Under the pieces are notes generated by a model. The model had not been told where the DNA came from and made no database searches. It was given only the letters and a program-made list of their open reading frames with translations. A stretch of 31,948 bases of DNA. Origin: a virus. Positions 6,278-22,755 of the stretch are shown one piece after another. Position 1 is the stretch's first letter; each line of letters begins with the position of its first letter. The position numbers and the translations under genes were made by a program. The DNA is taken from positions 1 to 31,948 of the IMG/VR virus record IMGVR_UViG_3300032401_000049, one strand, 5' to 3'.

Positions 6278-6290
6278 GGAGGAAATGACA

Positions 6291-7583: not shown

Positions 7584-8942
7584 ATGAAAAAGTTTTTAAA
7601 ATGGGCGACGGCCCTTTTAATCCCGTTGGGTGTTGTTGGGGGAATCTATGCCTCCCGTGTGGTTTACAATCAGCTCCTTGTGAGCGAGAGCGCATTGGCC
7701 TACAACAACACATACACGCTTGATTTGGGTTCGAGTGTCCTGCCAAACAGCAATATCGACACTCTTTCAATGCAAGCGGTTTACTCAAGCTCCACAATTT
7801 CAGGAATCAGTTTTACAGACGGAAAGGCTTCAACCGGATCTGTGACCGTGACAAACAATACTCTTTTAATTGGAGTGGCCGGGTCCAACACCATATCCGT
7901 CGCATCGAACACATTCTTGTCTGGGAAAGGATCATATTTCGATTTGAATTATATCCGTTTCCTCGACGGAGATTTGTGGAATGTCGGAGCTTCATCGGCG
8001 GCAACTGCCGTCAGCATTAAGAATGCCATCAATGCTTATGGCGGGACAAGCGGCGTCTTCTCTGCGTCGACCGCAACAGCGGATGGCGTGGTGACAGTGA
8101 CGTGCGTGACTGCCGGGGCGGCTTGCAATAATTACACACTGACATCGAGTACCTCTGCTGCTTTGACTCCGGGTGCCACCACGTTCAGTGGCGGACGAAA
8201 TCATCCGATCCTTATCGTAGCTGGATATCCATTGACAGAAGGAACCGAATGGACCCATGGCGCGACGGCGGCATTAACGGCGAAGTCCATTAGCGATGCG
8301 ATTCAGGCCCAATCGATTCTTGTCGGTCTCATTGCGTCAACATGGACGGCAGGCGGTGTTGTGACAGCCACATCGACTGCGACTGGCTCTGGTAAAAATT
8401 ATGCGCTCTGGTCATCGACCTATTCGTCTCTGACTCCATTCGCCACTCAAATGAAAGGCGGGACGGACTCAGGAATTGAAACCGCGAACAGTAAAATCTT
8501 ATCGACCAACCATGGCTTCTCGACAGCCTTGCCTGTTCTCTTCACAAAATCGGCGGGGACGCCTCCTGGGGCTTTGATTGATGGGACGACTTACTTCGCC
8601 ATCAAGGTGGATGCCAATAGCTTTAAGCTGGCTGCATCGACGGCCAATGCCATCGCGGGGACGGGAGTTTCTATCGGCACTCAAACGGCGCAAGGCGGAG
8701 GAGCATTCGCTCTGGCCCCATTGGGGATCGCCGGGACGCCCGGCTTCAAATGGCAAGCCTCGAACGACGGGACCAACTGGTATGACCTGTCCGTCTCAAG
8801 CGTCACCATGACCTCTCTGGCAGCAGCGTCGACCTTGTGGGACTTCTCAAGCGTGAATTATCGCTACATCAGGCTCAATGTCGTGGCTCCGTCGGCGGGC
8901 GGGATTAATCTTGTTGTGACGGGCGTCGGACGATCAAATTAA
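7584..8942 (+). CDS. Repeat-containing virion-type protein with N-terminal signal/anchor
   Basis: A 452-residue protein with a positively charged start (M-K-K-F-L-K) and a hydrophobic stretch at about residues 7-25, looking like a signal peptide or anchor. The rest is Thr/Ser/Gly/Ala-rich and beta-like. Two tandem units of about 80 residues occupy roughly residues 125-295: each has D-G-x-x-W or E-G-T-E-W, then an S-I-x-x-A-I helix, then G-V-V-T-x-T strands, ending L-T-P-x-A-T. Next is a domain with T-N-H-G-F-S-T, G-T-T-Y-F-A-I and S-F-K-L-A, recurrent in phage tail and virion proteins. The end (Y-R-Y-I-R-L-N) resembles a discoidin-like sandwich. It could be a head fibre or adhesin, or a protein exported during infection. 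Confidence 0.65.
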   Translation: MKKFLKWATALLIPLGVVGGIYASRVVYNQLLVSESALAYNNTYTLDLGSSVLPNSNIDTLSMQAVYSSSTISGISFTDGKASTGSVTVTNNTLLIGVAGSNTISVASNTFLSGKGSYFDLNYIRFLDGDLWNVGASSAATAVSIKNAINAYGGTSGVFSASTATADGVVTVTCVTAGAACNNYTLTSSTSAALTPGATTFSGGRNHPILIVAGYPLTEGTEWTHGATAALTAKSISDAIQAQSILVGLIASTWTAGGVVTATSTATGSGKNYALWSSTYSSLTPFATQMKGGTDSGIETANSKILSTNHGFSTALPVLFTKSAGTPPGALIDGTTYFAIKVDANSFKLAASTANAIAGTGVSIGTQTAQGGGAFALAPLGIAGTPGFKWQASNDGTNWYDLSVSSVTMTSLAAASTLWDFSSVNYRYIRLNVVAPSAGGINLVVTGVGRSN

Positions 8943-8964
8943 AATGACAAAGGAGGATTCAACC

Positions 8965-9384
8965 ATGAACGGACAATCCATTCCAAGACCAACGGCTATT
9001 TTGGCGGTTCCTGGTTCTCGGCCCATCCCGGCTGAGGATCAGGAACAGGTCCAAGAAGAAACCGACAGGCAAATAAGGCGAGAGGAGCTGCGCCGAAGAG
9101 ATATCGTCAAAGGGAACAAGGTCGCACAAATGCTCTCGGCCACTTATTTCATCACCGACAAAACCTTTCCGTTTCTGGCCTACAAGGGAAGGCAGCTTTC
9201 GGTGTCGGAGTATTATCCAGACGAGAAGATCGCCGTCGATAAGTTTTACTTTTCCGAGAAAATCGACCCGAAGGAAATTGAATTCAAAAGAGAGATGTTC
9301 AAAGACAACGGATTTAAATACGGGTTCCTTTCTCCCGATAAAAAGCTGGCTGACTTGGCCGATGAGCTTGGTCTGGCCGAATGA
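8965..9384 (+). CDS. Hypothetical protein in connector region
   Basis: A 139-residue charged protein. An ATG lies at 8944, but AGGAGG at 8951-8956 sits 8 nt before the in-frame ATG at 8965, which I take as the start. The middle has many Arg/Glu residues (E-E-L-R-R-R-D-I), then a Tyr/Phe-rich segment. No known motif. It sits between the capsid-side protein and the connector genes, so a virion or assembly role is possible. Confidence 0.6.
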   Translation: MNGQSIPRPTAILAVPGSRPIPAEDQEQVQEETDRQIRREELRRRDIVKGNKVAQMLSATYFITDKTFPFLAYKGRQLSVSEYYPDEKIAVDKFYFSEKIDPKEIEFKREMFKDNGFKYGFLSPDKKLADLADELGLAE

Positions 9385-9392
9385 GGTGAACC

Positions 9393-10040
9393 ATGACCGT
9401 AAGCATGGCGGATTTAATTACAAAGATGCGGTTGTTCGCTGATGATTCTCCGTCGGCAAACTACATTCGCGGAGAAACGCTTAAGCCGAAACCGGATGGG
9501 GCCCGCGTTCGCTTTTTTCTTGATTATCAGAACATCGCCAAAGACAGCGTATTCATAACCAAGGGAACGGGCGAGGCGAATTACAGGGTCGCGTCTGGTT
9601 TCACCATCGATCTTCAAAACGGGATCGTCACGTTCACGGTGGCTCCGCTTTCCGGCGTGAGCCCGTTTGAGGCCGACTACAATTTCCTTTGGTTCACAGA
9701 TGCCGACTATCAGAACTTCCTAAACAACTCCGCAATTTATTTGGGATCTCCCGATGCCATCAGCGTGATCCCCGGTCTTCAACCGGCTATGTATCAGTTT
9801 GGGATGCATCACTATTGGATTCGAAGAGCCTCTCATTACGCGCACAAATATGCGTCGACCGGCGGCATGGCTTCTCATTCTGTGGATGTGGTCACGAAGA
9901 ATTTTAAGGACCTGGCTGAGTCCGCATGGGAGAAGGGCATCCAGTTCCGCGATGATTATTACAAGAGACTTGGTCAAAGAGAATTGCCAGCCAGCGCGTC
10001 GGAGGCTTACGCCATCGATCCGTTTACTCCGATCAGGTGA
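9393..10040 (+). CDS. Probable head-tail connector/adaptor protein
   Basis: A 215-residue protein placed where adaptor proteins (HK97 gp6 / SPP1 gp15 role) are encoded: after the capsid genes and just before the HK97 gp10-like and tail terminator genes. The N-terminus is helical, the middle beta-rich (N-G-I-V-T-F-T-V-A-P), the C-terminal half helical with a His/Tyr-rich stretch (H-H-Y-W-I-R-R-A-S-H). AGGTGA lies 6 nt upstream of the ATG. The role is inferred from order; I see no decisive motif. Confidence 0.55.
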   Translation: MTVSMADLITKMRLFADDSPSANYIRGETLKPKPDGARVRFFLDYQNIAKDSVFITKGTGEANYRVASGFTIDLQNGIVTFTVAPLSGVSPFEADYNFLWFTDADYQNFLNNSAIYLGSPDAISVIPGLQPAMYQFGMHHYWIRRASHYAHKYASTGGMASHSVDVVTKNFKDLAESAWEKGIQFRDDYYKRLGQRELPASASEAYAIDPFTPIR

Positions 10041-10047
10041 TGGGACG

Positions 10048-10620
10048 ATGCCGGGGCGAGTCACTTTTAAGATAAAGGTCAGGGTCAAAGATGCGGACAT
10101 CTTTCCTGAGCTTCAAGGGAGACTTAAGGATTTCCGGCCTGCCTTTGAGGTGATCATCAAGCAATGGGCCCGGGGAAACGTCGACAAGTTTCGATCCTCG
10201 GTTGGGATGGAGGATACTGGGGCCGCAATCGATCCGAATGTTTTCTGGTCGGCCCTGGCGGAGTCAACGATCCGCGCCAAGCGACGGCATGGGATTTCAA
10301 ACCAGATCATGGTTGAGACAGGGGCTCTCATGCAAGCCCTGACCGATCCTTCGGGATTCTGGTCGGAGATGACGGCCTCCCAGACCGTATTTGGGACTCC
10401 GGGGTCCTTGGAAGACGAGTTGAAGGTCCGGTACAATTGGCAGACGAGACAGGCGATCTTCTTGGGGGCCGATGATCAGGTCATGATCGACGAGAAGGTC
10501 CACAGTTATTTAAGCCTTGGGCCTGATTTTGAAAGGAAGCGATTTTCCGCAGGGTTGGCGGCAGTTTATGATCGGGACTTGGACACAGAGATGAATATGG
10601 ACTTTGAGGGCGAGTCATGA
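10048..10620 (+). CDS. Phage virion morphogenesis protein (gpG/HK97 gp10-like)
   Basis: A 190-residue head-tail joining or tail completion protein. The signature of this family is visible: F-W-S-A-L-A-E-S-T-I, then K-R-R-H-G, then M-V-E-T-G-A-L-M-Q-A-L, corresponding to the usual W-x-x-L-x-x-x-T ... K ... L-x-x-T-G-x-L pattern. A C-terminal segment Q-A-I-F-L-G-A fits the later conserved strand. A longer open frame starts at 9799 but overlaps the previous gene entirely. AGGTGA at 10035-10040 is 7 nt before the ATG at 10048, which decides the start. It overlaps the next gene by 4 nt. Confidence 0.75.
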   Translation: MPGRVTFKIKVRVKDADIFPELQGRLKDFRPAFEVIIKQWARGNVDKFRSSVGMEDTGAAIDPNVFWSALAESTIRAKRRHGISNQIMVETGALMQALTDPSGFWSEMTASQTVFGTPGSLEDELKVRYNWQTRQAIFLGADDQVMIDEKVHSYLSLGPDFERKRFSAGLAAVYDRDLDTEMNMDFEGES

Positions 10621-11129
10621 GCGAGGTCATAGAAACGAACGGGATCACCGTCACCAATCACTTCGACGTGAAGGGGACCGCCATCCGGGATTTGATCAAG
10701 CAATACATCCCCGGTATTCCCGGCGTTTATTACGGCTTCCGAAATCTCGGCGCGAACGATCTTGACTATCCCTGCATCCATATCGATCCCATGAACCAGA
10801 AAGCCGAGATGCTGACGCTTGGAAAATATCACCTGTTTTTAGAATATGGACTTTTCTTTTTTGTGAGAGATAACGATCCTGAAAGCATCGTCACGCTTGT
10901 GACGAGCTTGGCGGAATCTCTCAAAAAGCTGTTCTCCAACAATGCGCTGGGTGATTTATCGACGACACGAACAAACAAGTTTAAATCATACACGGGATTT
11001 TGGATTAACAGTGAGATGGGCCTGCTTGAAATATCGAGAGCCTTTGTCAACGCGACTGCGGATACTCAGGTCCGATATATGAGGGCGGGGCTTCTTCGCC
11101 TCAAAGTCGAAGATGTTGTTTTAATGTAA
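10617..11129 (+). CDS. Probable tail terminator/completion protein
   Basis: A 170-residue protein between the HK97 gp10-like gene and the tail tube gene, the normal slot for the tail terminator (lambda gpU role), which caps the finished tube. It starts in a 4-nt ATGA overlap. The composition (an early helix, several strands, a helix near S-L-A-E-S-L-K-K-L-F) fits an alpha/beta terminator fold, but no clear motif is present. The call rests mainly on order and length. Confidence 0.55.
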   Translation: MSEVIETNGITVTNHFDVKGTAIRDLIKQYIPGIPGVYYGFRNLGANDLDYPCIHIDPMNQKAEMLTLGKYHLFLEYGLFFFVRDNDPESIVTLVTSLAESLKKLFSNNALGDLSTTRTNKFKSYTGFWINSEMGLLEISRAFVNATADTQVRYMRAGLLRLKVEDVVLM

Positions 11130-11146
11130 AAGAGGAGGATATTACT

Positions 11147-12115
11147 ATGCCATACGTTGGACAATTAATGGCGGCAGGATTGGCGAAAGAATCTTCGCTT
11201 GGGGTGCTTCAATCTCCACCGACAGAATTTTTACCGATCTATCCGCCGGATTCTTTCATGCCTGCGATTACCCTTTTGGAATCGACGGCCATCCGGGCCT
11301 TGCCAGACCGGATCTACAAGGCAATGCAGGGCCCCGGGGAAGTGAAGGGGATGAAAACAAAGTGGGAGGCAGAGCCGGAAAACATCGGGAATCTGCTGAT
11401 GGCCTGCTTTGGAGAAGACACGTTGACGGGCGCATTGGCGACCGGCTATACGCACACGTTCAAGAGGGCCATTGTGGCCCAGCTTCCCACCTATTCTTGG
11501 TGGATCGACAAGGGTGCGAAACAATTGCAATTCCTTGGATGCATGCTGAATAAACTCGACATCACGGCCAAGACGAAGGAGTTTGTCTTGGTTGAATCCG
11601 AATGGGTTGGGCTTTCTTATGACGACACAGGGACGGTTCAAGTGCCGACATACTCCGCTATTCCGCCGTGGAAGTTCAACATGGCTGACGTGAAGATCGA
11701 TGCCGGATCAATCCTGAATTATGACAATGTGAAGGTGACCTTCGATAACTTTGTGAAGGCCGACCACGCGCTGTCAGGTTCGATTTATCCAGCCAAGATT
11801 TACAGCGAAGGATTCGAGGTCACGGTCAGCATGGACCTGTTCGTTGAGGATGCGACGGAATATGCGAAGTTCCTCGCGGGGAACTCGACGGCCATTCAAT
11901 TGATATTGACGCACGTCGATAACATCACCGGAGCCGATCCGGCCAATCCGTTCAAGCTGACAATCGACATTCCTGATGCGAAATATTCCGTCGCAAGCTA
12001 TCCGCTTCCGTCTGGAATCATCAAGGTTAGCTTTACCGCAAGAGCGATTTATAATGTGGCGACCACAAAGACAGCATCGGTGGCCCTCATTAATTCCGTC
12101 TCTTCGGCTTACTAA
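11147..12115 (+). CDS. Major tail tube protein
   Basis: The tube subunit of the tail: 322 residues, directly before the frameshifted chaperone pair and the tape measure. The sequence is beta-rich and acidic, with T-Y-S-W-W-I-D-K-G, then L-Q-F-L-G-C-M-L-N-K-L-D-I-T near the middle; this G-x-x-x-N-x-L-x-I pattern is common in phage tube proteins. The length is greater than a single tube domain, so an extra C-terminal beta domain is possible. A GAGGAGG-type ribosome site precedes the ATG. No sheath gene accompanies it, which supports siphovirus morphology. Confidence 0.78.
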   Translation: MPYVGQLMAAGLAKESSLGVLQSPPTEFLPIYPPDSFMPAITLLESTAIRALPDRIYKAMQGPGEVKGMKTKWEAEPENIGNLLMACFGEDTLTGALATGYTHTFKRAIVAQLPTYSWWIDKGAKQLQFLGCMLNKLDITAKTKEFVLVESEWVGLSYDDTGTVQVPTYSAIPPWKFNMADVKIDAGSILNYDNVKVTFDNFVKADHALSGSIYPAKIYSEGFEVTVSMDLFVEDATEYAKFLAGNSTAIQLILTHVDNITGADPANPFKLTIDIPDAKYSVASYPLPSGIIKVSFTARAIYNVATTKTASVALINSVSSAY

Positions 12116-12127
12116 GGGAGGACTCAA

Positions 12128-12496
12128 ATGGAACTGCTGAAACTTGGAGAAAGACCGGCAGAGTATAAGTGGCAGGACGTGACCTTTTTCTTTCGGACGA
12201 AGGTGACGGTTGGCGACAAGTATGAGATTGACACCGCCGGGACGTTGATCGCGGGGAGCAAGGTGACATTCACGCCGTGGAATTTTTACTTGACCATCAT
12301 TCGTGTTTTCGTAACGGGATGGGAAGGCGTGACGGAAGACGGAAAACCTGTTCCATATTCCCTAGAGAATATGACGACTCGTCTTCCCTCTGAGCAATCG
12401 GAAGACTTGATCATGAAACTGGGTGTCCATATTGCCGAGGCCACGGGATTGATCTCAACTGACAAGCAGGAAGGAGAGGGAATAAAAAACGTCTAA
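12128..12496 (+). CDS. Tail assembly chaperone, short form (gpG-like)
   Basis: A 122-residue protein between tail tube and tape measure. In siphoviruses this position encodes the chaperone that coats the tape measure during tail building. GGGAGG lies just upstream of the ATG. Near the stop, the frame carries a canonical A-AAA-AAC slippery heptamer at 12484-12490, so a minority of ribosomes should shift to -1 and make the longer product described separately. The protein is beta-rich at first (V-T-F-F-F-R-T-K-V-T-V), then helical. Confidence 0.75.
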   Translation: MELLKLGERPAEYKWQDVTFFFRTKVTVGDKYEIDTAGTLIAGSKVTFTPWNFYLTIIRVFVTGWEGVTEDGKPVPYSLENMTTRLPSEQSEDLIMKLGVHIAEATGLISTDKQEGEGIKNV

Positions 12497-12822
12497 AGCG
12501 GGCGATCGAATGGCTGGAAACAGCCGGGACGTTCAAGTGTGAACGCTTCGATTGTCCGCAAGTTAAAAAAAAGGATTGCCCGAAATGCGGAATGCCGGAC
12601 ATATCAAAAGACGTGGCTTTCTACCTGAATCTCTATCGGCAATGTTCCACGTGGAATACTCTGCCGGAGAAGGGCGGTTTGTTTGATCAGCGGTGGGACA
12701 TCATGGACATCCTGAACACCATCAGCGCAGAGGTGGAGACGTGGCGAGAGAAGAAGATCGCGGACGAGAAATCAGCGATTGAAAAAAGTCAGATGGCGCG
12801 GGGATTAAATGGCGGACGTTGA
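12128..12822 (+). CDS. Tail assembly chaperone, frameshift fusion (gpGT-like)
   Basis: A -1 shift at 12484-12490 would join the short chaperone to the -1 frame, which is open from 12463 to 12822, giving about 231 residues. The added T part begins R-L-K-R-A-I-E-W-L-E. It then has a Cys-rich knot (F-K-C, F-D-C-P, D-C-P-K-C-G-M-P) that looks like a zinc ribbon, followed by a helical tail. An ATG at 12592 inside this frame lacks a good ribosome site and falls in the middle of the Cys knot, so independent translation is unlikely. In lambda, the correct ratio of G to GT is needed for tail length control. The 3' end overlaps the tape measure start by 14 nt. Confidence 0.75.
12471..12525 (+). promoter_or_regulatory. 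Programmed -1 frameshift signal
   Basis: Three standard elements are in order. A Shine-Dalgarno-like AAGGAG at 12471-12476 lies 7 nt before the slippery site. The slippery heptamer A-AAA-AAC is at 12484-12490, in the correct phase for a -1 shift. A downstream hairpin GGCTG-GAAA-CAGCC is at 12512-12525, with a GNRA tetraloop and about 21 nt of spacing. The zero-frame stop TAA at 12494-12496 comes straight after the slip site. The gap to the hairpin is longer than usual, so the upstream SD-like element may be the main stimulator. Confidence 0.75.
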
Positions 12823-14530
12823 TGCGAACATAAATATCTCGGCCACGGGAGCTGACGAGGCTTCCGCAGCCCTTGGCAAGGTTTCACAAGGCTTTCAGGG
12901 CATTTCTGAGGAGCATGCCAAGCTCGCTGGGAAATTCGGCGAAAGATTTCAACACGTCGGACTTCAGCTCTTCGTTGGAGAGGCTTTAAAGGCTTCCGGC
13001 GTTGGGATGGAGACCCGGGGTGTTCTCAACATCCTGAATCTTGCCCTCACCTCGTTTGGCGTGGCTATGGGTGTGGCGGTCCCCTACATCATCGGCGTAG
13101 CGGCAGCGTTGGCGGTCCTTTACGGGATCTATCAGAAGATTGCCGATGGAACCAAAAAAAGAAAGGACGAGCTTCAAACTCTCCTCACCGATCAAGCAAA
13201 AGAAATCCAGACAATCAACAACAGCATCTCAACTCTTGAAAGCTATAACAAAACCCTTGGATATCTCCCGGAGACGACCAGAAAAGTCATGGAGGCCGAA
13301 AAAGAATTGAGAGATTTTCGGGCCGACGACGAGATGGACACACTTGAGAAGCAGATCGCTGTCATGAAAAAATTGCAGGATCAGGACGAAAAGCTCGTCG
13401 CCGTCTATCAGCAAAACGCCATCGCTCAAAAGAATGTCAATGCAGCTTCCGTTATTTCAGCCGCCGCAACGTCCGGATTGATCGGAGCCGTCGGCGCGGT
13501 CACGATCAAATATACGGATTGGAATAAACAGATTCATGATGCCAAAGGAACGCAGCTAGAACACAACATGGAAATGGCGAAGGCCGTTGATCGATTGTCT
13601 CGGTTGAAAGGCGGTATCACGGAGACTTATGAGGCTCTTGTCAAGAAGGCCAAGGAAGGGAAGGACGAAGCGGAGAAGGCTTCGCGGGAGCAGATCAGTG
13701 CCATCGAGCGAATTGGGAAGGCTGAGGAAGTTTTAAGAGACAAGGAAGCCGGTTATCTGGTGGATGCCGCCCAACAGAACGCGAACTCAATGGCTGAAAA
13801 GAATCGAGCGACCGAGATGTGGTACGAGAAGGAATTGCAAAAGCTCCAAGCGTGGTATGACATGCAGGTCATGTATATCAACAACCACATCAAAGACGTT
13901 CAACTGGCCAATGCAAAGAAAGCCGAGCTTCAAGAACTTTATGGAAAAACTCTTGATGCCCTTGAGAAGGATCGGTCCGCAAAAACTTTAACTGCCGAAA
14001 AGAAAATGTGGACAGAAATCCAAAGCGCGGCGGCAGCGGCCATCGATTCTACAGCAAAGAAGATCGGAGATTCCTTTGCGAAAATGGTGATGGAAGGGAA
14101 AAGTTTCACGGAGAATTTGAAGAATTTGTGGCGAGATATGGCAGAGCAGTTCATCGCGGAGGTAACGCGGATGATTGTTAAATACATGGTTTTTCTTGCT
14201 TTGACAGGTGGAAGCACCGCTTCTCCAATGGCCAAGATGTTTGGATTCGCGGAAGGGGGTTCGATGCTTGTGACTCGGCCCACTCTGATGTTGGCCGGAG
14301 AAGGAGGGGAGCCGGAAGTGGCGACCTTCACGCCGCTTTCAAAGATGCAATCGGCAGGTGGCGGCATATCGCAGATGGGAGGCGGAGGGGCCCCACAGAT
14401 CACGATCGGCGCGGTGGAGACCCATGTCTATGGCGTCACAGATCCATCGCGGATCGCGGATGAGGTGGGAAGGCAGATTGTTCAAAGGATTCGTGGTATG
14501 GGAGAGCTTGATTTTGTGAGGGCGATCTAA
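12809..14530 (+). CDS. Tape measure protein
   Basis: A 573-residue tail-length ruler that also helps DNA cross the envelope. After a short N-terminus there is a hydrophobic block of about 45 residues near residues 68-112 (for example F-G-V-A-M-G-V-A-V-P-Y-I-I-G-V-A-A-A-L-A), able to enter a membrane. Long charged coiled-coil helices follow from about residue 115 to 440. The C-terminus has a second hydrophobic patch and the familiar G-G-S-M-L-V-T-R-P-T ... A-G-E-G-G-E-P-E-V tape measure ending. No peptidoglycan hydrolase domain is seen. It is short for a siphovirus. The start overlaps the chaperone T frame by 14 nt. Confidence 0.85.
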   Translation: MADVDANINISATGADEASAALGKVSQGFQGISEEHAKLAGKFGERFQHVGLQLFVGEALKASGVGMETRGVLNILNLALTSFGVAMGVAVPYIIGVAAALAVLYGIYQKIADGTKKRKDELQTLLTDQAKEIQTINNSISTLESYNKTLGYLPETTRKVMEAEKELRDFRADDEMDTLEKQIAVMKKLQDQDEKLVAVYQQNAIAQKNVNAASVISAAATSGLIGAVGAVTIKYTDWNKQIHDAKGTQLEHNMEMAKAVDRLSRLKGGITETYEALVKKAKEGKDEAEKASREQISAIERIGKAEEVLRDKEAGYLVDAAQQNANSMAEKNRATEMWYEKELQKLQAWYDMQVMYINNHIKDVQLANAKKAELQELYGKTLDALEKDRSAKTLTAEKKMWTEIQSAAAAAIDSTAKKIGDSFAKMVMEGKSFTENLKNLWRDMAEQFIAEVTRMIVKYMVFLALTGGSTASPMAKMFGFAEGGSMLVTRPTLMLAGEGGEPEVATFTPLSKMQSAGGGISQMGGGGAPQITIGAVETHVYGVTDPSRIADEVGRQIVQRIRGMGELDFVRAI

Positions 14531-15192
14531 TGGGATGGCAAACCTTTAAACTGGGACGGCCTGGATATGAATATAGCTTCGACGTGAACCCAGAAGCGAT
14601 GGCCATTGAAGACGGCCCGATCGCTGTGCTTCAGAGAAATTTGGCGGGGGATCTCAAGAAATCCATCATCAAAACGTCGGTCCCGATCATAAAGCTGAAC
14701 TCAAACTATTTGATGATGGCTCAGAGAAATCAATTCGCCAGCTTGGCGGGGATCGCGGACACGTTTCTTTCGTTCATCACCCGTGACGATTGGCAGATTA
14801 TCGCGGAGAAGAATACCCCTCTTAACCTCACTCAGGTGAAATTGCAGAATAACTCCGCGACGAAACTGTCCGCCGCATTGGTGGCAGCCGGTTTTTCATC
14901 GATCATCACCGTCACATCGGCGGCCCAGATTCCGAATGTAACGGCGGGACCCGTGTTTGGCGGCGGCGGATTCGGAGAGGGAGGATTCTCCGGGCCGGAT
15001 TTCTTCACGGGAGGATCTTATGACGACCTCACGAGAACTGTCACTCTCGGAACGACGCTGCCATCTTTGAATCCTGTCTATTTGACGTATACTTATACGG
15101 GATGGCTTGTGAACATGGAAAAGCTATCCCACGCCATCCGGGGGGGATGGATTGACCGATTTACCTACGACTTCGTTCTCACGGGGGCATAG
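14530..15192 (+). CDS. Probable distal tail protein
   Basis: A 220-residue protein starting one base into the tape measure stop (TAATG). Position after the tape measure and before the hub is that of distal tail (Dit-like) proteins, which form the ring joining tube and tip. The sequence begins with beta strands (F-K-L-G-R-P-G-Y-E-Y-S-F-D-V-N-P-E), has a Gly/Phe-rich loop (G-G-G-G-F-G-E-G-G-F) near residue 145, and ends with strands Y-L-T-Y-T-Y-T-G-W. The assignment is by position and beta content. Confidence 0.6.
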   Translation: MGWQTFKLGRPGYEYSFDVNPEAMAIEDGPIAVLQRNLAGDLKKSIIKTSVPIIKLNSNYLMMAQRNQFASLAGIADTFLSFITRDDWQIIAEKNTPLNLTQVKLQNNSATKLSAALVAAGFSSIITVTSAAQIPNVTAGPVFGGGGFGEGGFSGPDFFTGGSYDDLTRTVTLGTTLPSLNPVYLTYTYTGWLVNMEKLSHAIRGGWIDRFTYDFVLTGA

Positions 15193-15241
15193 GCGCACAA
15201 AATAGCCCAAGAATCGATTTAAGGGCACAGGAGGTCTCAAA

Positions 15242-16471
15242 ATGAAGAAACTCGCAGCCTTGGCCATCACGCTAAGCCTCATGGCCCTTGGAATTGAACC
15301 ACAGAACACGTTCGCCGATACAACGACCACGAGATGGGGGATGACCAAGCCGGATGTTGGTTCCACCAATTGGGGACCCAAGATCAACTCCAATTACGAC
15401 ATCATCGACAACGCCGCCGGGGTCGGGATCACCAATACCTTTACCCAGCCCAATTATTTCACAGGGGTTGTTGTGATTGGCGGGACCACATATTCAGGGT
15501 CCGGCGATGCTGAATTAAGAAAAGATCAAAACACGACAACAACCTTTCGCATCACCAATGTCAACAATAATGCCTCAGCCGGAGCAGAGCTTCTTTTGAC
15601 AGCCAATGGGGCCACCTCCAATGATCCGTTCTTGGGATTTGTGACAAATGCTCAAAACTGGGCCATGGGCGTGGATAGTAGTGCTTCAAGCGCGTTTAAG
15701 ATTTCAAAAAATCCAACCCTCGGATCGACTGATCTGTTTATTATTTATCCAACCTGTCAATTCGTAACGGAACTTAAAATCAATAGTATCGAATTTACAG
15801 GAATCACTGGGAGCAATACCAGAAGCGTTTTGGCGAATCCGGGAACGGCAGCGACCGATGGGGCGGTTTATCTCGCCTATGTTCAAGCCGGAACGTCCGG
15901 TGATCCGTACAGTTTGTATTCGATGGGAAATACGTCGTACTGGTCGGCAGGGATGGACAACAGCGACGGCAATTCTTATGTGATTTCCAACTCCTCCACG
16001 CCGGGGACATCGAACGCTTTTAGAGCAACCTTAACAGGCGTATCAATGCTTGGGACTACTACCAATAACAGCGCTGCGTCTGGATGGGTGGGACAATATA
16101 TAAGTTCAACGACGATCATCGCGACCTCCTATCCAACATCGTCACAATACGGAGATTTAGTGGCCCTTGCGTTGACAGCGGGCGATTGGGATGTGACGGG
16201 CGTGATCGGGGCCACTGCGAATGGTGGGACTATTTCACAGATCGCCATAGGGATCAGTTATACTGCTGGAAATTCTTCATTCGCTTTAGTTCAAGGGGAC
16301 AATCTTAATTTTGGCCCTGGACCAACAATCGCTGCCGATGCGGGACAGACTATGCCAAACGTCAGAGTCTCCATTAACACCCCGACAACATATTATTTAA
16401 AATACCGTAGTGATTATTCCGTTGCGACACCCAAAGCAGTGGGAAGGATCAGCGCGAGAAGAGTTCGATAG
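15242..16471 (+). CDS. Tail fibre-like protein with signal peptide
   Basis: A 409-residue protein beginning with a textbook signal peptide: M-K-K, a hydrophobic core (A-L-A-I-T-L-S-L-M-A-L-G) and a probable cleavage site after T-F-A near residue 26. The mature start, G-M-T-K-P-D-V-G-S then N-W-G-P-K-I-N-S-N-Y-D-I-I-D, is a motif common near the N-termini of phage tail fibres and baseplate adhesins. The rest is Ser/Thr/Asn/Gly-rich beta structure. CAGGAGG precedes the ATG. A Sec signal on a virion protein is unusual: it may be exported before lysis, or the hydrophobic start may be used in virion assembly. Confidence 0.65.
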   Translation: MKKLAALAITLSLMALGIEPQNTFADTTTTRWGMTKPDVGSTNWGPKINSNYDIIDNAAGVGITNTFTQPNYFTGVVVIGGTTYSGSGDAELRKDQNTTTTFRITNVNNNASAGAELLLTANGATSNDPFLGFVTNAQNWAMGVDSSASSAFKISKNPTLGSTDLFIIYPTCQFVTELKINSIEFTGITGSNTRSVLANPGTAATDGAVYLAYVQAGTSGDPYSLYSMGNTSYWSAGMDNSDGNSYVISNSSTPGTSNAFRATLTGVSMLGTTTNNSAASGWVGQYISSTTIIATSYPTSSQYGDLVALALTAGDWDVTGVIGATANGGTISQIAIGISYTAGNSSFALVQGDNLNFGPGPTIAADAGQTMPNVRVSINTPTTYYLKYRSDYSVATPKAVGRISARRVR

Positions 16472-16482
16472 GATGCCGATCG

Positions 16483-19400
16483 ATGCTCTCAGTATCAAGC
16501 GCATTTAAGGCGGCGGAGCAGGCCGATGTCAACCAAGTCGCCGCGAATCTTTATCTTGTCCTCGGAAATTATGCGAGTGCATCGGCTTATGGATCTACCG
16601 CATCCGCTTCATCTTCGGATGGAAGCGGAAACTATCCTGCTTCCGGGGCGATTGATGGAGACCGGACAGAGTTAAACGTTGGCCCCGCCTCTTCAGCGGA
16701 TAACGATATCGGCCTTTCATCTTGGCGATCAAGCGTCGCTCCCGACACAACCACGCAAACCCTGACGATTGATTTAGGCGTTTCAAGAATAATCAGCAGG
16801 CTAAAACTCTACCACCTGGCCAGCCATGCCTTAAAATCCTTCAAGTTTTCCTATTCAGTCCTCGGAACCGCTTACACGGACTTCGCGGCCACAACCGATG
16901 TGGGCGGGGCCCCGACTCTATTCGCGACCACAAAGAAGGTCGACACGGTTGATTTTACGGCCATCACAGCCCGATATATCAAGCTCACCATCTCCGCAAC
17001 GGACGTGGCCCTCGACAAGGCAAACGTGGTGGAGCTGGAATTCTATCGAGTGATCGAAGTGTCTGACCGTGTGCTTTCCGCCGAGATGAACCGATCGAGA
17101 GATTACAAGCTGGCCAATCCTCTCGCCTCCACTCTTAAATTAGTCTGCGATAATTCGGACAGGTTTTTTTCTTTTGATCACATCCCAATCGCCGCAGAGA
17201 CGGCTCTTGGATTCGTCAACTCGGAACTTAAACCGAATATCGGCGTGATCGCCAAATATGGATATGCCTATGGCGGAGGAACGCCGGAGACAGCGACCGT
17301 GTTCGTTGGATATCTTGACCGGATCACGATCAGTCCGAAAGACAGAAAGGCAACGCTTGAGTTTCGGGACCCCATGAAAGTTCTTCTCAACCAAACCGTG
17401 TCATCAAAATTAAAAACCAGCATCGATTTATCGACGGCCATGACATATGCTCTCAACCTCGCGAATATTTCAACATGGGAGATGGCCTTCGATGCGACCG
17501 GACTGACGCTTGATTATTTCTTTTTGTCTGGACAATCCGTGGCTTCCGCTGTCAGGGATTTGACGCAAGGAGCCGGAGATGCGATCTTCTATTTCGATGA
17601 GAACGGAATCGCCACCTTCAAAACATTCCTTGGTTCAACGCCACAGCAAAGAACCATCACGTCTCAAGCGGAATGGGAGGCCGGATCGGTTTTCACAAAC
17701 ATCGACACAAAATCGACGCCCGGGCAGATCAATAGAAAGTGGTTTTTGCTTGATGATTTTGCGGACAATAATTTCAATCTCAATCCGGCATGGACGAATA
17801 GGATCGCCACGCAATCATACACGGACACATTGCAGGCGGACTTTCTAGCCGGAACAGTTCTAACGAATATCGACGCGGATTCCTCTCCCGGAGATATCCA
17901 GAGAAAATGGTTTCTCATCGATGATTTTGCGGACGGGAATGCTTCGACCAATCCGGCCTGGGTGCTCAATGTTGCGCAACGTGGGAATTTCCCGCCATTC
18001 GCCCCCAACAACTGGACGGTGACTTCAAATCAGCTTTATTATCAATGCCCCGTCGGATTAAACGCTGGGACCGCATATACGCCATTTAACAAAGCCGTGG
18101 GAACATGGGAAGCAAAAATAAAAATGACAGATAAGAACGGAACGGCCAAATTCGTCTTTATCGCAAATTCAACCGGATTCGATTTCACCACTGTCCTGGG
18201 GAATGGTTATGCTGTTAAAATTTCGCCAAACGGAATAGTCACTCACATGGCAATTACAAAACTTGGTGTTTCTGGTTTTGACACGGAATTGGCTGGTGCT
18301 GATTATGGTTTCACATCCGGGAATTATTTTACCATCAGGGTGACAAGAGATCAGACGGGGAACATGTCTCTTTATGTGAACGGTGTTTTGGTTTGCGCAA
18401 CAAGTTCGCCTGATACTGATTTCAATACAAGTGCCTACGTTGGATTTTCTGCGGTTTCCGCGAGCAGTGCCACACTGTTTTATTTCGACGATATTTATTT
18501 CTCTTACGGGATCAACCCGACGGGGGCGGCCAGCTCCGTTCAATCTGTTTTTGAATCAAGAGTCTTCGATCAATCGACGCAGGTTTTATCTGAGAGCATT
18601 TTTTCTGCCGTTTATTCAACGCCCGCAGGGACAGACCTTCAATTTTGGACGGCGACCTGGGACGGGATTTCTCCCGGATGGGACCCATGGGTTCCGATAA
18701 CAAACGGAGCCTTGATTGGGTCGACAACCAAGCGTTACATCAAATACAAAGCCCTCTTTAATTGCCCTATTGATACGGGGCTTAATAATGCGAACGCAAC
18801 CACGCCCGTCATCTCATCCGTGACCATAAATTACACCGTCGTTGGATGGCAGGCCATCTCGCAATCGCTTAATTATCTCCCCGGATCATCCGGCCTCATG
18901 GCTGGCATCGATCTCCCTTTCAATCAACCCGTTGGGACATGGCGAGGACTTTTCACCTGTACGCCCGGGGCCGGGGGCGGATCGCTGGTTCGGATGTACG
19001 TCGTCACGACCGGGTATAGTATCCCACAGGGAACTTATACGGACGGGTATTATGTTCAGCTTGATCAAAAAAACTCGAAGATCGGTATTTACAAAATAGG
19101 AGCATCAGGAACCCGCACCCTTTTGGCCGAGGTGGCCCAAGCCATAAATACATCGGCTCATTCCGTTCGCATGACAAGAGAGTCGACCGGACAATTGACC
19201 GCCTACTTTGACGAAGTTCAAGTTGTTCAAGTCACCGATACCACCTATACACAGGTGACTGTTTTTTCTTTAGAAGTCGACCCAACGGGCGATAATAATT
19301 CCGTCACGCAAATTGACGATATTTATTTCTCAAAACAAGTCGATGGGACGGGAGCGATCACCAATGTGGCGTCAATTTACGAATCCCAGGTGATTGACAT

Positions 19401-20466
19401 GACGGCTTCGATCGCTCTCCTTGGACTGTTCGAGGCGAACCTTATCACCCCAACAGGAACAAGTCTTCTATTTTACACGGCCACATCTTCAGATGGGATC
19501 ACCTTCGATCCCTATGTGGTGGTTGCCCCTGGGGGCCAAATTACATCAACCGTCAAACGGTACATACAATTCAAGGTTGTTATGGCCGCGCCGGAGGACA
19601 TCGGAACAAAGGCCGACCTGTCCACTCCGGTTGTCACAGATGTCACCATTCACTGGAATACGACAGGCGGGTCCCAGAAATATCCGCAGTCCGTTTCTTT
19701 CACCTTCCGGTACGATGATGTTCTTTTGAATGTCGACCAGCAGATCACGGATAACCTCGGAGGAGATTCTTCCATCGCCAACGATGTGACTGTGCAGGCA
19801 AAGCCCCTCCTCCTTTCGGGGACCAGTGCCGACACAAAGTGGCAGGGAACCGTGGGGACGCCACCCGTTTCTATTTCAGTCACGAATCCCCTCAACGTGA
19901 CAAATGGCCAAGTGTTGACCTACGATGTGGTCGTTTCGGGAGGGATGGACATCTCTTTGATGGCGGGGGCGAGCCCGGCAGGGGCCGTGGTGACATTCGC
20001 AGGAGGGGCGACGGGATCGTGGGTTTTCTCAAGAATCCATCCGACGCGCCCCAAGCTCATCATAACGATCACGGCGTCTGGTACGATCACGGATCTTCGG
20101 ATCGTTGGGAAATCATTCTCAAACTCAAATTATATTCAATCCCAAAATGCCAACAATCCGCAATCGATCCGGCTCTATGGAGATCGACCCCTCCAAATTT
20201 CAAATCAATATATTGTGAACTCCGGCGTGGCCCTGACTATTGCCACGAGACTCTTGGCGAATTATAAAGATCCGACCTCTTTCATTTCGATATGTGAGGT
20301 CAGGCCCACGTTCTCCATGGGTCTTGGAGACCGGATTCGTATCGTTGACGAAAACACGGATATGAACGCCGACTTTATCGCGGTCGGGGTCCGGCAATCC
20401 ATACAGGCTTCCATGTCAAACGGAGAAGCTAAAACAGAATTGACTCTCTTGAGGGTGGTCGTATGA
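16483..20466 (+). CDS. Large tail hub protein with inserted lectin-like modules
   Basis: A 1327-residue tail tip protein. Residues ~30-195 form a discoidin (F5/8-type) sandwich with many R-Y-I-K-L-like strands. Residues ~195-400 look like a hub domain (R-D-Y-K-L-A-N-P, then F-V-G-Y-L-D-R-I-T-I). Residues ~405-515 hold two copies of a 56-residue unit containing R-K-W-F-L-x-D-D-F-A-D. Two larger 276-residue modules follow, each a concanavalin/LamG-like sandwich ending D-D-I-Y-F-S plus a discoidin-like part. From about residue 1070 the hub resumes, with S-I-R-L-Y-G-D-R-P-L-Q-I and L-G-D-R-I-R-I-V-D typical of tail hub C-termini. The inserts probably bind host surface sugars. The start is weakly placed: TAGGA lies about 10 nt upstream. 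Confidence 0.75.
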   Translation: MLSVSSAFKAAEQADVNQVAANLYLVLGNYASASAYGSTASASSSDGSGNYPASGAIDGDRTELNVGPASSADNDIGLSSWRSSVAPDTTTQTLTIDLGVSRIISRLKLYHLASHALKSFKFSYSVLGTAYTDFAATTDVGGAPTLFATTKKVDTVDFTAITARYIKLTISATDVALDKANVVELEFYRVIEVSDRVLSAEMNRSRDYKLANPLASTLKLVCDNSDRFFSFDHIPIAAETALGFVNSELKPNIGVIAKYGYAYGGGTPETATVFVGYLDRITISPKDRKATLEFRDPMKVLLNQTVSSKLKTSIDLSTAMTYALNLANISTWEMAFDATGLTLDYFFLSGQSVASAVRDLTQGAGDAIFYFDENGIATFKTFLGSTPQQRTITSQAEWEAGSVFTNIDTKSTPGQINRKWFLLDDFADNNFNLNPAWTNRIATQSYTDTLQADFLAGTVLTNIDADSSPGDIQRKWFLIDDFADGNASTNPAWVLNVAQRGNFPPFAPNNWTVTSNQLYYQCPVGLNAGTAYTPFNKAVGTWEAKIKMTDKNGTAKFVFIANSTGFDFTTVLGNGYAVKISPNGIVTHMAITKLGVSGFDTELAGADYGFTSGNYFTIRVTRDQTGNMSLYVNGVLVCATSSPDTDFNTSAYVGFSAVSASSATLFYFDDIYFSYGINPTGAASSVQSVFESRVFDQSTQVLSESIFSAVYSTPAGTDLQFWTATWDGISPGWDPWVPITNGALIGSTTKRYIKYKALFNCPIDTGLNNANATTPVISSVTINYTVVGWQAISQSLNYLPGSSGLMAGIDLPFNQPVGTWRGLFTCTPGAGGGSLVRMYVVTTGYSIPQGTYTDGYYVQLDQKNSKIGIYKIGASGTRTLLAEVAQAINTSAHSVRMTRESTGQLTAYFDEVQVVQVTDTTYTQVTVFSLEVDPTGDNNSVTQIDDIYFSKQVDGTGAITNVASIYESQVIDMTASIALLGLFEANLITPTGTSLLFYTATSSDGITFDPYVVVAPGGQITSTVKRYIQFKVVMAAPEDIGTKADLSTPVVTDVTIHWNTTGGSQKYPQSVSFTFRYDDVLLNVDQQITDNLGGDSSIANDVTVQAKPLLLSGTSADTKWQGTVGTPPVSISVTNPLNVTNGQVLTYDVVVSGGMDISLMAGASPAGAVVTFAGGATGSWVFSRIHPTRPKLIITITASGTITDLRIVGKSFSNSNYIQSQNANNPQSIRLYGDRPLQISNQYIVNSGVALTIATRLLANYKDPTSFISICEVRPTFSMGLGDRIRIVDENTDMNADFIAVGVRQSIQASMSNGEAKTELTLLRVVV
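17752..17934 (+). repeat. Tandem 56-codon duplication inside the hub gene
   Basis: The 15-mer GATGATTTTGCGGAC occurs at 17752-17766 and again at 17920-17934, exactly 168 bp (56 codons) apart. The protein units around it match in order: T-N-I-D, S-P/T-P-G, R-K-W-F-L, D-D-F-A-D, N-P-A-W. This points to a duplication inside the gene. Confidence 0.75.
18487..19331 (+). repeat. 276-codon module duplication inside the hub gene
   Basis: The 17-mer GACGATATTTATTTCTC is found at 18487-18503 and 19315-19331, 828 bp (276 codons) apart, coding D-D-I-Y-F-S both times. Flanking protein segments match in order: V-G-T-W near the sandwich start, V-R/R-M-T-R before a T-G-x-x-x-x-Y/F strand, then E-S-x-V-x-D after the repeat. 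Each unit is a lectin-like domain plus a discoidin-like domain. Confidence 0.75.
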
Positions 20467-20909
20467 TCGATCTTATTTTGAAATTGAAGCGAAGATGGTT
20501 GAACGCGAAGGCGACCATTGGAGAGCTTTATGTCGGAGACAATCCTCGCCGCCAATGCTACACGCTTGAGGACAAAATGCGGGAAGGAGAAGAGAAGATC
20601 CCCGGAGAAACAGCCATCCCTCTTGGCCGTTATGAGGTCATCATCACTTACTCGGAGAGGTTCAAAAAGCCCCTGCCGCTTCTGGTTGGGGTTTCGGGAT
20701 TCGAAGGTATAAGAATCCACCCGGGCAATTCTGACGTTGACACGGCTGGCTGTATTCTCGTCGGACGGATGATCATCAATGACGATTTTATAGGAGAATC
20801 AAGGAATGCTTTCAGTGAATTGTTTCCCATCATCGAGGACGGATGCAAGCATGGCAAGATTTTTATCGAAATAACAAAAGAACCCTATGTCTCCACGGAG
20901 GTTGTATGA
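20463..20909 (+). CDS. DUF5675 family protein, possible peptidoglycan-active enzyme
   Basis: A 148-residue protein matching the DUF5675 pattern: T-I-G-E-L, C-Y-T-L-E-D, K-I-P-G-E-T-A-I-P-L-G-R-Y, then G-I-R-I-H-P-G-N, D-T-A-G-C-I-L-V-G. His86 and Cys97 are spaced like the catalytic His and Cys of L,D-transpeptidase (YkuD) folds, which also carry a Gly-Cys turn. It opens the likely lysis cassette, in a 4-nt overlap with the hub gene. No separate endolysin is visible in the window, so this protein may supply that role or modify the cell wall. The family match is by memory of its motif; enzymatic activity is inferred. Confidence 0.7.
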   Translation: MIDLILKLKRRWLNAKATIGELYVGDNPRRQCYTLEDKMREGEEKIPGETAIPLGRYEVIITYSERFKKPLPLLVGVSGFEGIRIHPGNSDVDTAGCILVGRMIINDDFIGESRNAFSELFPIIEDGCKHGKIFIEITKEPYVSTEVV

Positions 20910-21322: not shown

Positions 21323-22000
21323 ATGGAACGAAAAAGAGTTATTGTCGCCTATGGGGATATCTTTGGATTCGCCCAGTGGATCAAGCGGCCCGCGAACGCA
21401 CCGGAGGATATCCAGGCGTTGATGGAGGATGCTTATGAAGCCTTTACGGATTATTCCGTTTCGATCGGCGGCGTCTCGAAATTCATGGGGGACGGGATCG
21501 TGGTGATCAAGGAATTATCCATCGGTCACAATTGTCGGCTTGTGCTGGACATCATGAGAAAATCTTATTTCTTCACAGAGAAGGTCAACAAAATCATTCA
21601 GAACCATTGGCCGAGGCCACATGGATTCAGGGTGAGACTTGTGGCCGGATATGTTTATAAAAAAATGGTGGATTGTAAAAACTGCATGCAAGGCTTCACG
21701 TCCAACAAAATTAATAACGTCGCAGAATACATCGGTTATCCGATCAATTTGGCCCAGCGTCTTTTATACGTTGAACCGCAGACGTGGTGTATCTGCCACG
21801 AGTCCGTAAAGCAGATCATCGGAGCGAAAAGAAGTGGCGTTAAATTTCACCACATTAAGAACCCGCGCGATAATCCGAGAGGCATCGACAAGGAAGATTT
21901 ACGGAGTTTAATTCAGTTTTCTTTTGATTCAAGGAAATTATCTGAAGGGGAGGACAAAGACAATGGAAACGGAAAAGAAAGAACCTGTCGAAAAGCGTAA
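21323..22000 (+). CDS. Class III nucleotidyl cyclase homologue
   Basis: A 225-residue stand-alone cyclase-fold protein. The class III motifs appear in order: V-A-Y-G-D-I-F-G-F (first metal ligand Asp12), G-G-V-S-K-F-M-G-D-G (second metal ligand Asp57, with Lys53 in the base-binding position), F-R-V-R-L-V-A-G-Y-V-Y (the usual R-x-G-I-x-x-G-x-V strand) and E-Y-I-G-Y-P-I-N-L-A-Q-R-L (Asn142 and Arg146, the transition-state pair). Glu135 stands where adenylate cyclases usually have Asp. Such enzymes make cyclic nucleotides (cAMP, cGMP, or cCMP/cUMP in Pycsar defence) in the cytoplasm. No regulatory domain is attached; the tail is Asp/Gly/Lys-rich. It sits in the lysis cassette and overlaps the next membrane gene by 38 nt. 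Product nucleotide and role are unknown. Confidence 0.78.
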   Translation: MERKRVIVAYGDIFGFAQWIKRPANAPEDIQALMEDAYEAFTDYSVSIGGVSKFMGDGIVVIKELSIGHNCRLVLDIMRKSYFFTEKVNKIIQNHWPRPHGFRVRLVAGYVYKKMVDCKNCMQGFTSNKINNVAEYIGYPINLAQRLLYVEPQTWCICHESVKQIIGAKRSGVKFHHIKNPRDNPRGIDKEDLRSLIQFSFDSRKLSEGEDKDNGNGKERTCRKA

Positions 22001-22289
22001 AAAATATATGCTGGCCCAAGTGGTGGATGTTTTTATCGGGCGACAATCCCGGAAGGTGGCCTTTGGCGTGTGGGGATTCCTCGCCGCGAATTCTCTGATT
22101 GCCAGCGGGAAAATAGACATGATCGTCTATTGGAAGATGTTTTTAACGTGCGCCCTTCTCATTGGGTTTGGGACCATTCTTGATTCTATCGTCGAGAAAA
22201 TCGGGGATCAATTGGCGGGTAAGATAGCAACAAGAATTAAACCGGAGGTGGCAGATGCTAATCCCATCAACCCTGCAATCACTGGTTAA
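21963..22289 (+). CDS. Small two-helix membrane protein, candidate holin or effector
   Basis: A 108-residue protein with a charged cytoplasmic-type start (T-E-K-K-E-P-V-E-K-R-K-K), two predicted membrane helices (around residues 31-50 and 56-80, e.g. F-L-T-C-A-L-L-I-G-F-G-T-I-L), and a charged tail. GGGGAGG about 9 nt before the ATG at 21963 fixes the start; a longer in-frame form from 21924 lacks this. Two helices and a position among lysis genes fit a class II-type holin. Because it overlaps the cyclase gene by 38 nt, an alternative is a membrane partner of the cyclase. It shows no cyclic nucleotide-binding domain. Confidence 0.6.
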   Translation: METEKKEPVEKRKKYMLAQVVDVFIGRQSRKVAFGVWGFLAANSLIASGKIDMIVYWKMFLTCALLIGFGTILDSIVEKIGDQLAGKIATRIKPEVADANPINPAITG

Positions 22290-22755
22290 TAAGAACACGT
22301 TCATCGGCCTGATGATTGTCGTCTCGATCATTTCTTTCGCAGATGCTTACAAGACCCGGCAAGAGGTAAAAAAATTGCAAGCGGTTTATCAGAATCCAAA
22401 GACGGTTGAGGTTATTAAAATCATCAGAGAGAAAGGGCCCGTTCAGATTCGGACCATTATCGTCGAAAAGCCGGGCGGCGAGAAGATCACGACGATCAGG
22501 GAACAACAGGGCGCGAGTCTTGAACAACTCATATCGGGAGCATCTTCTCAACCGGTCCCCGTATCAGAAATAATGCCACCGACACGGACGGATCGCTGGC
22601 TTCTTGGCTTATCTCTGCTTGATTTCTCGCCCCGGGCCATGAATAGCTATACCTTGTGGGGCGGCTACTCTTTTCGGAATCGATTTGATTTGCTCTATGG
22701 GCTTAACTCCAACGATGGGCTCCATCAGAGCATTTTGGGAATTGTCAGATTTTAA
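22255..22755 (+). CDS. Bitopic envelope protein, possible spanin-like
   Basis: A 166-residue protein with an N-terminal membrane helix (residues ~16-30, F-I-G-L-M-I-V-V-S-I-I-S-F-A), a Lys/Glu-rich extended or coiled region, a Pro-rich linker, then a beta-rich C-terminal part (W-L-L-G-L-S-L-L-D, Y-T-L-W-G-G-Y-S, F-D-L-L-Y-G-L). It ends in Phe (G-I-V-R-F), as outer-membrane beta proteins often do. The layout would span from inner membrane to outer membrane, matching the place and job of a spanin in Gram-negative phage lysis, but no lipobox is seen. GGAGG precedes the ATG; it overlaps the previous gene by 35 nt. Confidence 0.55.
   Translation: MLIPSTLQSLVNKNTFIGLMIVVSIISFADAYKTRQEVKKLQAVYQNPKTVEVIKIIREKGPVQIRTIIVEKPGGEKITTIREQQGASLEQLISGASSQPVPVSEIMPPTRTDRWLLGLSLLDFSPRAMNSYTLWGGYSFRNRFDLLYGLNSNDGLHQSILGIVRF

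Follow-up and report, generated by a model that had tools for sequence, protein, structure and literature searches.

Why should a gene for a tail-fibre-like protein open with what looks like an export signal, when tailed-phage assembly is taught as a cytoplasmic process? The question is raised by a complete gene for a protein of 409 amino acids (15242..16471, + strand) in a viral stretch of 31,948 bases, which we call the window. The window follows the usual tailed-phage order, with terminase, portal and head genes (major head protein, 6285-7487) and then tail genes (tail tube, 11147-12115), and the gene in question sits inside the tail module. Before it come the tape measure gene (12809..14530, +; phrog_1716, E 3.3e-5; PF09718, E 0.0037, below the cut-off) and an upstream tail gene of 220 amino acids (14530..15192, +), whose family match is weak (a PHROG without assigned function, E 0.0061) and whose name comes solely from its place, that of Dit, after the tape measure and before the fibre. 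After it lies the gene for a large tail protein of 1327 amino acids (16483..20466, +), likewise named by position, here that of Tal, with an F5/8 type C domain (PF00754, E 2.8e-13) and a match to a tail protein family (phrog_1887, E 4.4e-8).

Further along, the gene after the large tail protein (20463-20909) matches DUF5675 (E 9.3e-30), and similar proteins are seen by eye in two related records (L193, L194). The 225-aa product of 21323-22000 resembles by eye a class III nucleotide cyclase (VIVAYGDIFGFAQW...FMGDGIVVIKE), a likeness for which Pfam and PDB sequence searches gave no confirmation. The product of 22255-22755 has an N-terminal hydrophobic segment and may be a spanin-like or envelope protein; by eye, proteins like it follow the tail genes in L193 (~10978-11478) and L194 (10751-11248).

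An export signal joined to a fibre anchor

The protein begins MKKLAALAITLSLMALGIEPQNTFA/DTTTTRWGMTKPDVGSTNWGPKINSNYDIID, where the slash marks the predicted cut. Residues 1-25 (15242..15316, +) show a K-K n-region, then a hydrophobic core free of charged residues, then a T-F-A/D c-region, with cleavage predicted after A25, that is, after base 15316. Signal calls throughout were made with a rule-based predictor written for this analysis, not SignalP, and the rule describes a Sec signal cleaved by signal peptidase I: a basic n-region, an uncharged core of 8-16 residues and small residues at -3 and -1, all of which this protein has. A Shine-Dalgarno sequence, GGAGGT (15230..15235, +), lies 6 nt 5' of the ATG. 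Among later in-frame starts up to 15500, a comparable context was seen only at ATG 15341, which falls within the fibre motif described below, and at GTG 15473, and both are weaker. A start-site artefact was ruled out: no later start matches the Shine-Dalgarno sequence of the upstream ATG, and initiation at 15341 would cost the anchor its DTTTTRWG. The sole cysteine of the protein is residue 172, and no lipobox with a cysteine at +1 was found.

Given that short hydrophobic stretches can satisfy such a rule, its background rate matters. Shuffles of residues 2-45 satisfied it in 110 of 5000 cases, and 22 of 470 control ORFs did so (at least 100 aa, taken from the family loci and the window, other than the family itself), some of these 22 being adjacent fibre genes that also bear a signal, or genes for proteins resembling lipoproteins. 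The shuffle rate and the presence of the signal in relatives, described below, together make a chance hydrophobic start unlikely. A first, sequence-only reading of this locus had recognised a Sec-type signal (M-K-K, a hydrophobic core and a probable T-F-A cut) on a fibre-like protein; sequence and predictor agree with it, and the view that the protein opens with a putatively cleavable Sec-type signal is supported.

That reading had also placed a fibre N-terminal motif straight after the cut, and alignments bear this out. Residues 26-60 (15317..15421, +; DTTTTRWGMTKPDVGSTNWGPKINSNYDIIDN...; alignments A2, A3 and A5) constitute the anchor motif, and within it residues 26-56 can be aligned to the extreme N-termini of Tunturi_4 ORF112 and of the product of an MW202879 gene (L012, 4001-4870). 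An IMG/VR scan with the window, Tunturi_4 ORF112 and the MW202879 gene, of which the best 80 further loci were kept, gave together with the latter two a set of 82 anchor genes, and none of these bears a signal among the matches listed. They have in common with the window the pattern D-T-T-T-T-x-x-G-L-T-K-P-x-V-G...W-G...N-x-N-x-D-x-I-D, and most of those among the matches listed start M-A-D-T-T-T-T or M-P-D-T-T-T-T. The window protein reads T-F-A/D-T-T-T-T where ordinary fibres read M-A/D-T-T-T-T, and its signal therefore precedes a normal fibre N-terminus. Because anchor homologues in other phages do without it (0/82 among the matches listed), the signal is an added module.

The anchor, like the tip described below and the place of the gene among tail genes, marks the product of 15242-16471 as a probable tail fibre or receptor-binding protein. 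As a whole it has no Pfam, PHROG or NCBIfam match at E 0.001 (best Pfam row E 0.036, below the cut-off), its variable body (residues 61-262; 15422..16027, +), which differs among relatives, has no family match at the same threshold, a PDB search with the three-sequence anchor profile gave best rows of E 0.23 or worse, and a search of the plasmid collection gave no match. In Tunturi_4 (L011, 5446-9119), ORF112 carries the anchor without a signal, and the next genes, ORF113 and ORF114, are signal-like, with 8 and 20 cysteines in their mature parts.

The signal at the same locus in related records

A lineage-specific anchor scan of IMG/VR, made with the window, L033 and L022 and keeping the best 80 loci, contained four genes with a signal among the matches listed (L192, L193, L194 and L239). 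L192, L272 and L274 are one record, and L193 comes from the same record as L033. In all four related records (L192/L272, L193, L194 and L273) the gene that follows the same upstream tail gene has, in the same position, both signal and anchor. In L192, L193 and L194 the upstream tail gene is 88, 62 and 62% identical to that of the window, and the genes run as in the window, with the tape measure first, then the upstream tail gene, the fibre and the large tail protein (both by tblastn). In L273, where identity falls to ~49%, the first three of these genes are in the same order (tblastn), and the gene adjoining the upstream tail gene begins MRRLIPFLIAFIAGVANA/DTTTNRLSLTVPSIGSTGWGPKIN, with GGAGG before its ATG; no large tail protein was found in the piece of the record that was examined, and other fibre-like genes follow the fibre. 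Three more consecutive genes after that fibre (8541-12279) have hydrophobic starts and 4 to 14 cysteines, and one of the three satisfies the signal rule, from an inner start.

Signals and fibre bodies have diverged among these four records. One member, L192, ends in a C1q-like domain instead of the window's tip (PF00386, E 6.9e-5; its 23.5 bits fall just short of the 23.7 cut-off). Across the five lineage members the signal ranges from 18 to 25 residues in length, and in every one the predicted cut abuts the anchor (TFA/D, AFA/D, VFA/D, VLA/D and ANA/D); the cut predicted for L239, VWA/A, likewise lies at the anchor junction. Between the window and L192, pN is 0.049 and pS 0.703 in the anchor, as compared with 0.315 and 0.491 in the signal, which is still signal-like. 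When 28 random substitutions were placed in 72 nt, 4.3% of sequences stayed signal-like, the observed differences between the two genes being 27 in 75. Since all four records are signal-like despite this divergence and random change leaves so few sequences in that state, we conclude that the signal on the fibre gene is being kept in this lineage. The first reading had named homologues lacking the signal as evidence against it: the anchor homologues elsewhere do lack it (0/82 among the matches listed), and the records that share the locus carry it (4/4).

Could the hydrophobic start nonetheless serve something other than export, staying on the protein as a tail-attachment peg or the start of a trimer, or being cut off in the virion? 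Tail proteins normally assemble in the cytoplasm, and the sampled anchor family works without a signal (0/82 among the matches listed), which would both suit such a role. However, the features of a cleavable signal are present: a basic n-region, an uncharged core, small residues at -3 and -1 and a length that varies. The predicted cut falls at the anchor junction in 6 of the 6 members examined, and a retained start would put extra residues before an N-terminus that is usually M-A-D-T-T-T-T among the matches listed. We regard this explanation as improbable.

The fibre is not the only protein of the window with such a start. As the first reading had noted, a second signal-like protein is encoded at 7584 (7584..8942, +). 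Its gene lies directly after that of the major head protein, and from this position it may be a head fibre or decoration protein. It starts MKKFLKWATALLIPLGVVGGIYA/S, its residues 1-23 (7584..7652, +) are signal-like by the rule, and it has a match to PF00754 below the cut-off (E 1.3e-4). Three of the four related records have the protein, at 78, 60 and 59% identity, and in each of these the start still passes the rule as signal-like. In the fourth record, L273, no match to it was found; two small proteins after the head protein replace the 7584-type protein there, and both fail the signal rule.

The tip and its family

Residues 263-409 (16028..16468, +; ending RISARRVR; alignments A1 and A4) belong to a family found at fibre ends. 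The window sequence alone found no match in the PDB; a profile of 60 sequences (A4) reached one chain at E 0.001, 8vbx_R, Tail fiber (gp47), with E 1.6e-26. AlphaFold2 modelled residues 255-409 as an eight-stranded beta domain (mean pLDDT 87.2). The first rows of a Foldseek search of the PDB were Pgp3, birnavirus VP2, an Omono River virus protrusion and the BC2L-C lectin domain, with query TM-scores of about 0.4-0.5 and with E 0.001 reached by only four rows, all of them Pgp3; a cyanophage short-tail-fibre domain appeared lower down. Against the viral library, query TM-scores were about 0.67-0.74 for the top twelve rows, which comprised two proteins of the pectate lyase superfamily, two tail fibres and otherwise uncharacterised or nameless entries. 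Pgp3 and BC2L-C are TNF-like trimers. We read the tip, from this model and these matches, as a jelly-roll domain that would be trimeric and bind a receptor. The fibres of 8VBX gp47, Pectobacterium phage PPWS1 and Enterobacter phage SDFMU_EhYP (Autographiviridae) share the tip domain with the window but have another N-terminal part, which in PPWS1 and SDFMU_EhYP lacks a signal by the rule (SDFMU_EhYP from an inner start).

The window and the two relatives with the tip (G000, G001 and G002) have one copy each, which is the signal-bearing one, and no tip match was found in the other two related records (G003 and G004); any of these records may be incomplete. These counts bear on the suggestion, also made in the first reading, that the exported protein is a decoy: a tip secreted to the periplasm or beyond, outside the virion, would mask the receptor, blocking superinfection or preventing progeny from adhering to debris. 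By itself a Sec signal takes a protein to the periplasm and not to the outer surface, which speaks against such a role, as does the virion-type anchor, retained as the most conserved part behind the cut. The single, signal-bearing tip copy in the window and in each of the two tip-bearing relatives (possibly fragmentary records) tells against it as well. A dedicated decoy paired with a virion fibre was rejected, because with one tip copy per record no second, signal-less copy was seen in G000, G001 or G002 (possibly incomplete records). On the other side stand the combination of a signal with a receptor-binding-type tip and the fact that phages do encode signal-bearing envelope proteins. The passages available on these describe lambda Lom, encoded between the tail spike and the tail fibres (PMC12309495), and the Cor lipoproteins, which inactivate receptors (PMC4936722). 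Like the window protein these are phage-encoded and signal-bearing, and the Lom gene also lies among tail genes; unlike it, they are an outer-membrane barrel or lipoproteins, with no fibre anchor or tip in those descriptions. Overall, a decoy seems unlikely, though less so than a start with no part in export.

We next turn to how common signals are in the tip family. Three scans and six phage records gave 108 tip loci among the matches listed; 10 with an open N-terminus were dropped, and the set with the window counted 99, or 89 after removal of near-copies. Among the matches listed, 28 of the 89 are signal-like and 61 are not, as compared with the 22 of 470 control ORFs. One rule hit, L092, was judged false by eye (27/89 without it), and single calls may be wrong because start codons were picked by script. 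Explaining the signal on the best tip tree (90 rows, L194 added) takes at least 19 changes, against 24.7 on average for shuffled labels, and 1 to 4 of 500 shuffles were as low as observed; the trait is therefore clustered on the tree, where well-supported branches force only two signal changes. On this weak tip tree the signals look like an exchangeable N-terminal module.

Genes beside signal-bearing tip members were themselves signal-like in 6 of 30 cases, against 0 of 63 beside the others (among the matches listed), although one of the six, L102 5643-7415, resembles a membrane protein and not a fibre. Signal-like fibre-type genes lie beside signal-bearing tip genes at L045 3092, L053 5705, L074 2857, L102 3058 and L002 3470, four of these five having A-Q-T-F or G-Q-T-F near the predicted cut.

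Signal-like tip relatives also occur in genome contigs of Cupriavidus, Paraburkholderia, Bradyrhizobium and Verrucomicrobia. The named genome matches with a signal belong to diderm phyla, as do three of the four without one, the fourth being a Woesearchaeota bin. Signal-like relatives in such contigs would fit a display of the protein on the host, as an adhesin or conversion protein made from fibre parts on infected or lysogenic cells. Yet the protein has no lipobox, and searches of Pfam and NCBIfam to E 0.1 turned up no outer-membrane anchor (an autotransporter barrel, for instance). Its gene also lies between tail genes, and we consider host-surface display very improbable.

Are there cultured phages with the same arrangement? 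Burkholderia phage BcepC6B gp19 and Xanthomonas phage PBR31 orf035 have the C-terminal tip of the window and a signal-like start; they differ from it in lacking the WG-N anchor and beginning with ...NPAGSTSGQAI..., and they have 4 and 2 cysteines, respectively, in the mature part. Bcep781 gp49 of Burkholderia (phrog_33320; its counterpart in Bcep43 is gp48, by database row) was reached through the start of L074, a protein with the window's tip; no direct match to it from the window protein was among the matches listed. Like the fibre gene of the window it lies in a tail cluster and encodes an N-terminal signal, and it is annotated as a tail fibre; unlike in the window protein, another segment follows the cut (QFAPGQVLTAAQLN...) and the mature part holds 14 cysteines. 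Its record is annotated 'possible tail fiber; possible signal peptide domain', and single cases have therefore already been noticed. In the open-licence literature searched, titles and the starts of abstracts described no signal peptides on tail fibres, and no precedent for an exported fibre was found in searches not aimed at periplasmic docking; the main text of the Tunturi paper makes no mention of mass spectrometry.

Cysteine content follows the signal to some extent. Mature parts of signal-bearing tip members hold 0.83 Cys per 100 aa versus 0.35 in the others (Mann-Whitney p 8e-5, a statistic that ignores relatedness), and at least two cysteines are found in 20 of 28 versus 18 of 61 (among the matches listed), their number being even in 19 of those 20 and 12 of those 18. 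The association comes down to two independent pairs on supported branches, where significance is out of reach; the excess in the last 140 aa is not significant (p 0.11), and the control ORFs that lack a signal themselves have 0.90 Cys per 100 aa on average. An excess in signal-bearing relatives would fit oxidative (disulfide) folding in the periplasm. For the window fibre this rationale was rejected, because it has only one cysteine; for the relatives it was kept as an idea, weakened by the tree-aware test.

An exported fibre and its meaning

How might these features fit together? Our preferred reading, to which we give a probability of about one half, is that the gene encodes a receptor-binding fibre that is exported through Sec, trimmed, folded outside the cytoplasm and joined to the tail at lysis. 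The fibre would be made as a precursor, and its signal peptide would direct passage through Sec. Signal peptidase I would then remove the signal, and the mature protein would start DTTTTRWGMTKPDVG, the N-terminus of an ordinary fibre. Outside the cytoplasm the mature fibre would fold into a shaft and a jelly-roll tip, probably as a trimer. Once holin and lysis open the inner membrane, the fibre could dock by its N-terminal anchor onto tails built in the cytoplasm. In tailed phages, assembly can end with the addition of fibres or spikes.

This exported-fibre reading draws on the strong Shine-Dalgarno sequence, the good predictor score, the pattern of signal and anchor, the gene order and the homology of the tip, as well as on the excess of signals in the tip family (28/89 among the matches listed vs 22/470) and the signal-like neighbours. 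Counted against it is the fact that the sampled anchor family manages without a signal (0/82 among the matches listed). The first reading had left the choice between an unusual assembly site and a decoy. Because the anchor persists behind the cut under strong conservation, and because the window and the two tip-bearing relatives (possibly incomplete records) show only one tip copy, we favour the assembly site over the decoy.

A broader form of the exported-fibre reading, which we hold more tentatively and rate below even odds, is split assembly. Heads and tails would be built in the cytoplasm, the Sec-precursor fibre and head-side appendages would fold in the periplasm and attach at lysis, and tip modules would move between exported and cytoplasmic fibres. 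As part of the same tentative proposal, many relatives would have disulfides in their periplasm-folded appendages.

If true, receptor-binding parts could mature in a second compartment that allows disulfides to form, and phages would have a way to keep adhesive parts off the assembling virion until lysis. Five related records share a locus at which the signal precedes a normal anchor, and elsewhere signals stand before other fibre bodies. The idea is directly testable in the cultured phages Tunturi_4, PBR31, BcepC6B and Bcep781. It also bears on annotation: in a passage of one paper, the absence of signal peptides was counted as support for a phage origin of variable proteins (PMC6199706). That related phages keep the signal suggests that some phages may export a receptor-binding fibre before the virus is completed.
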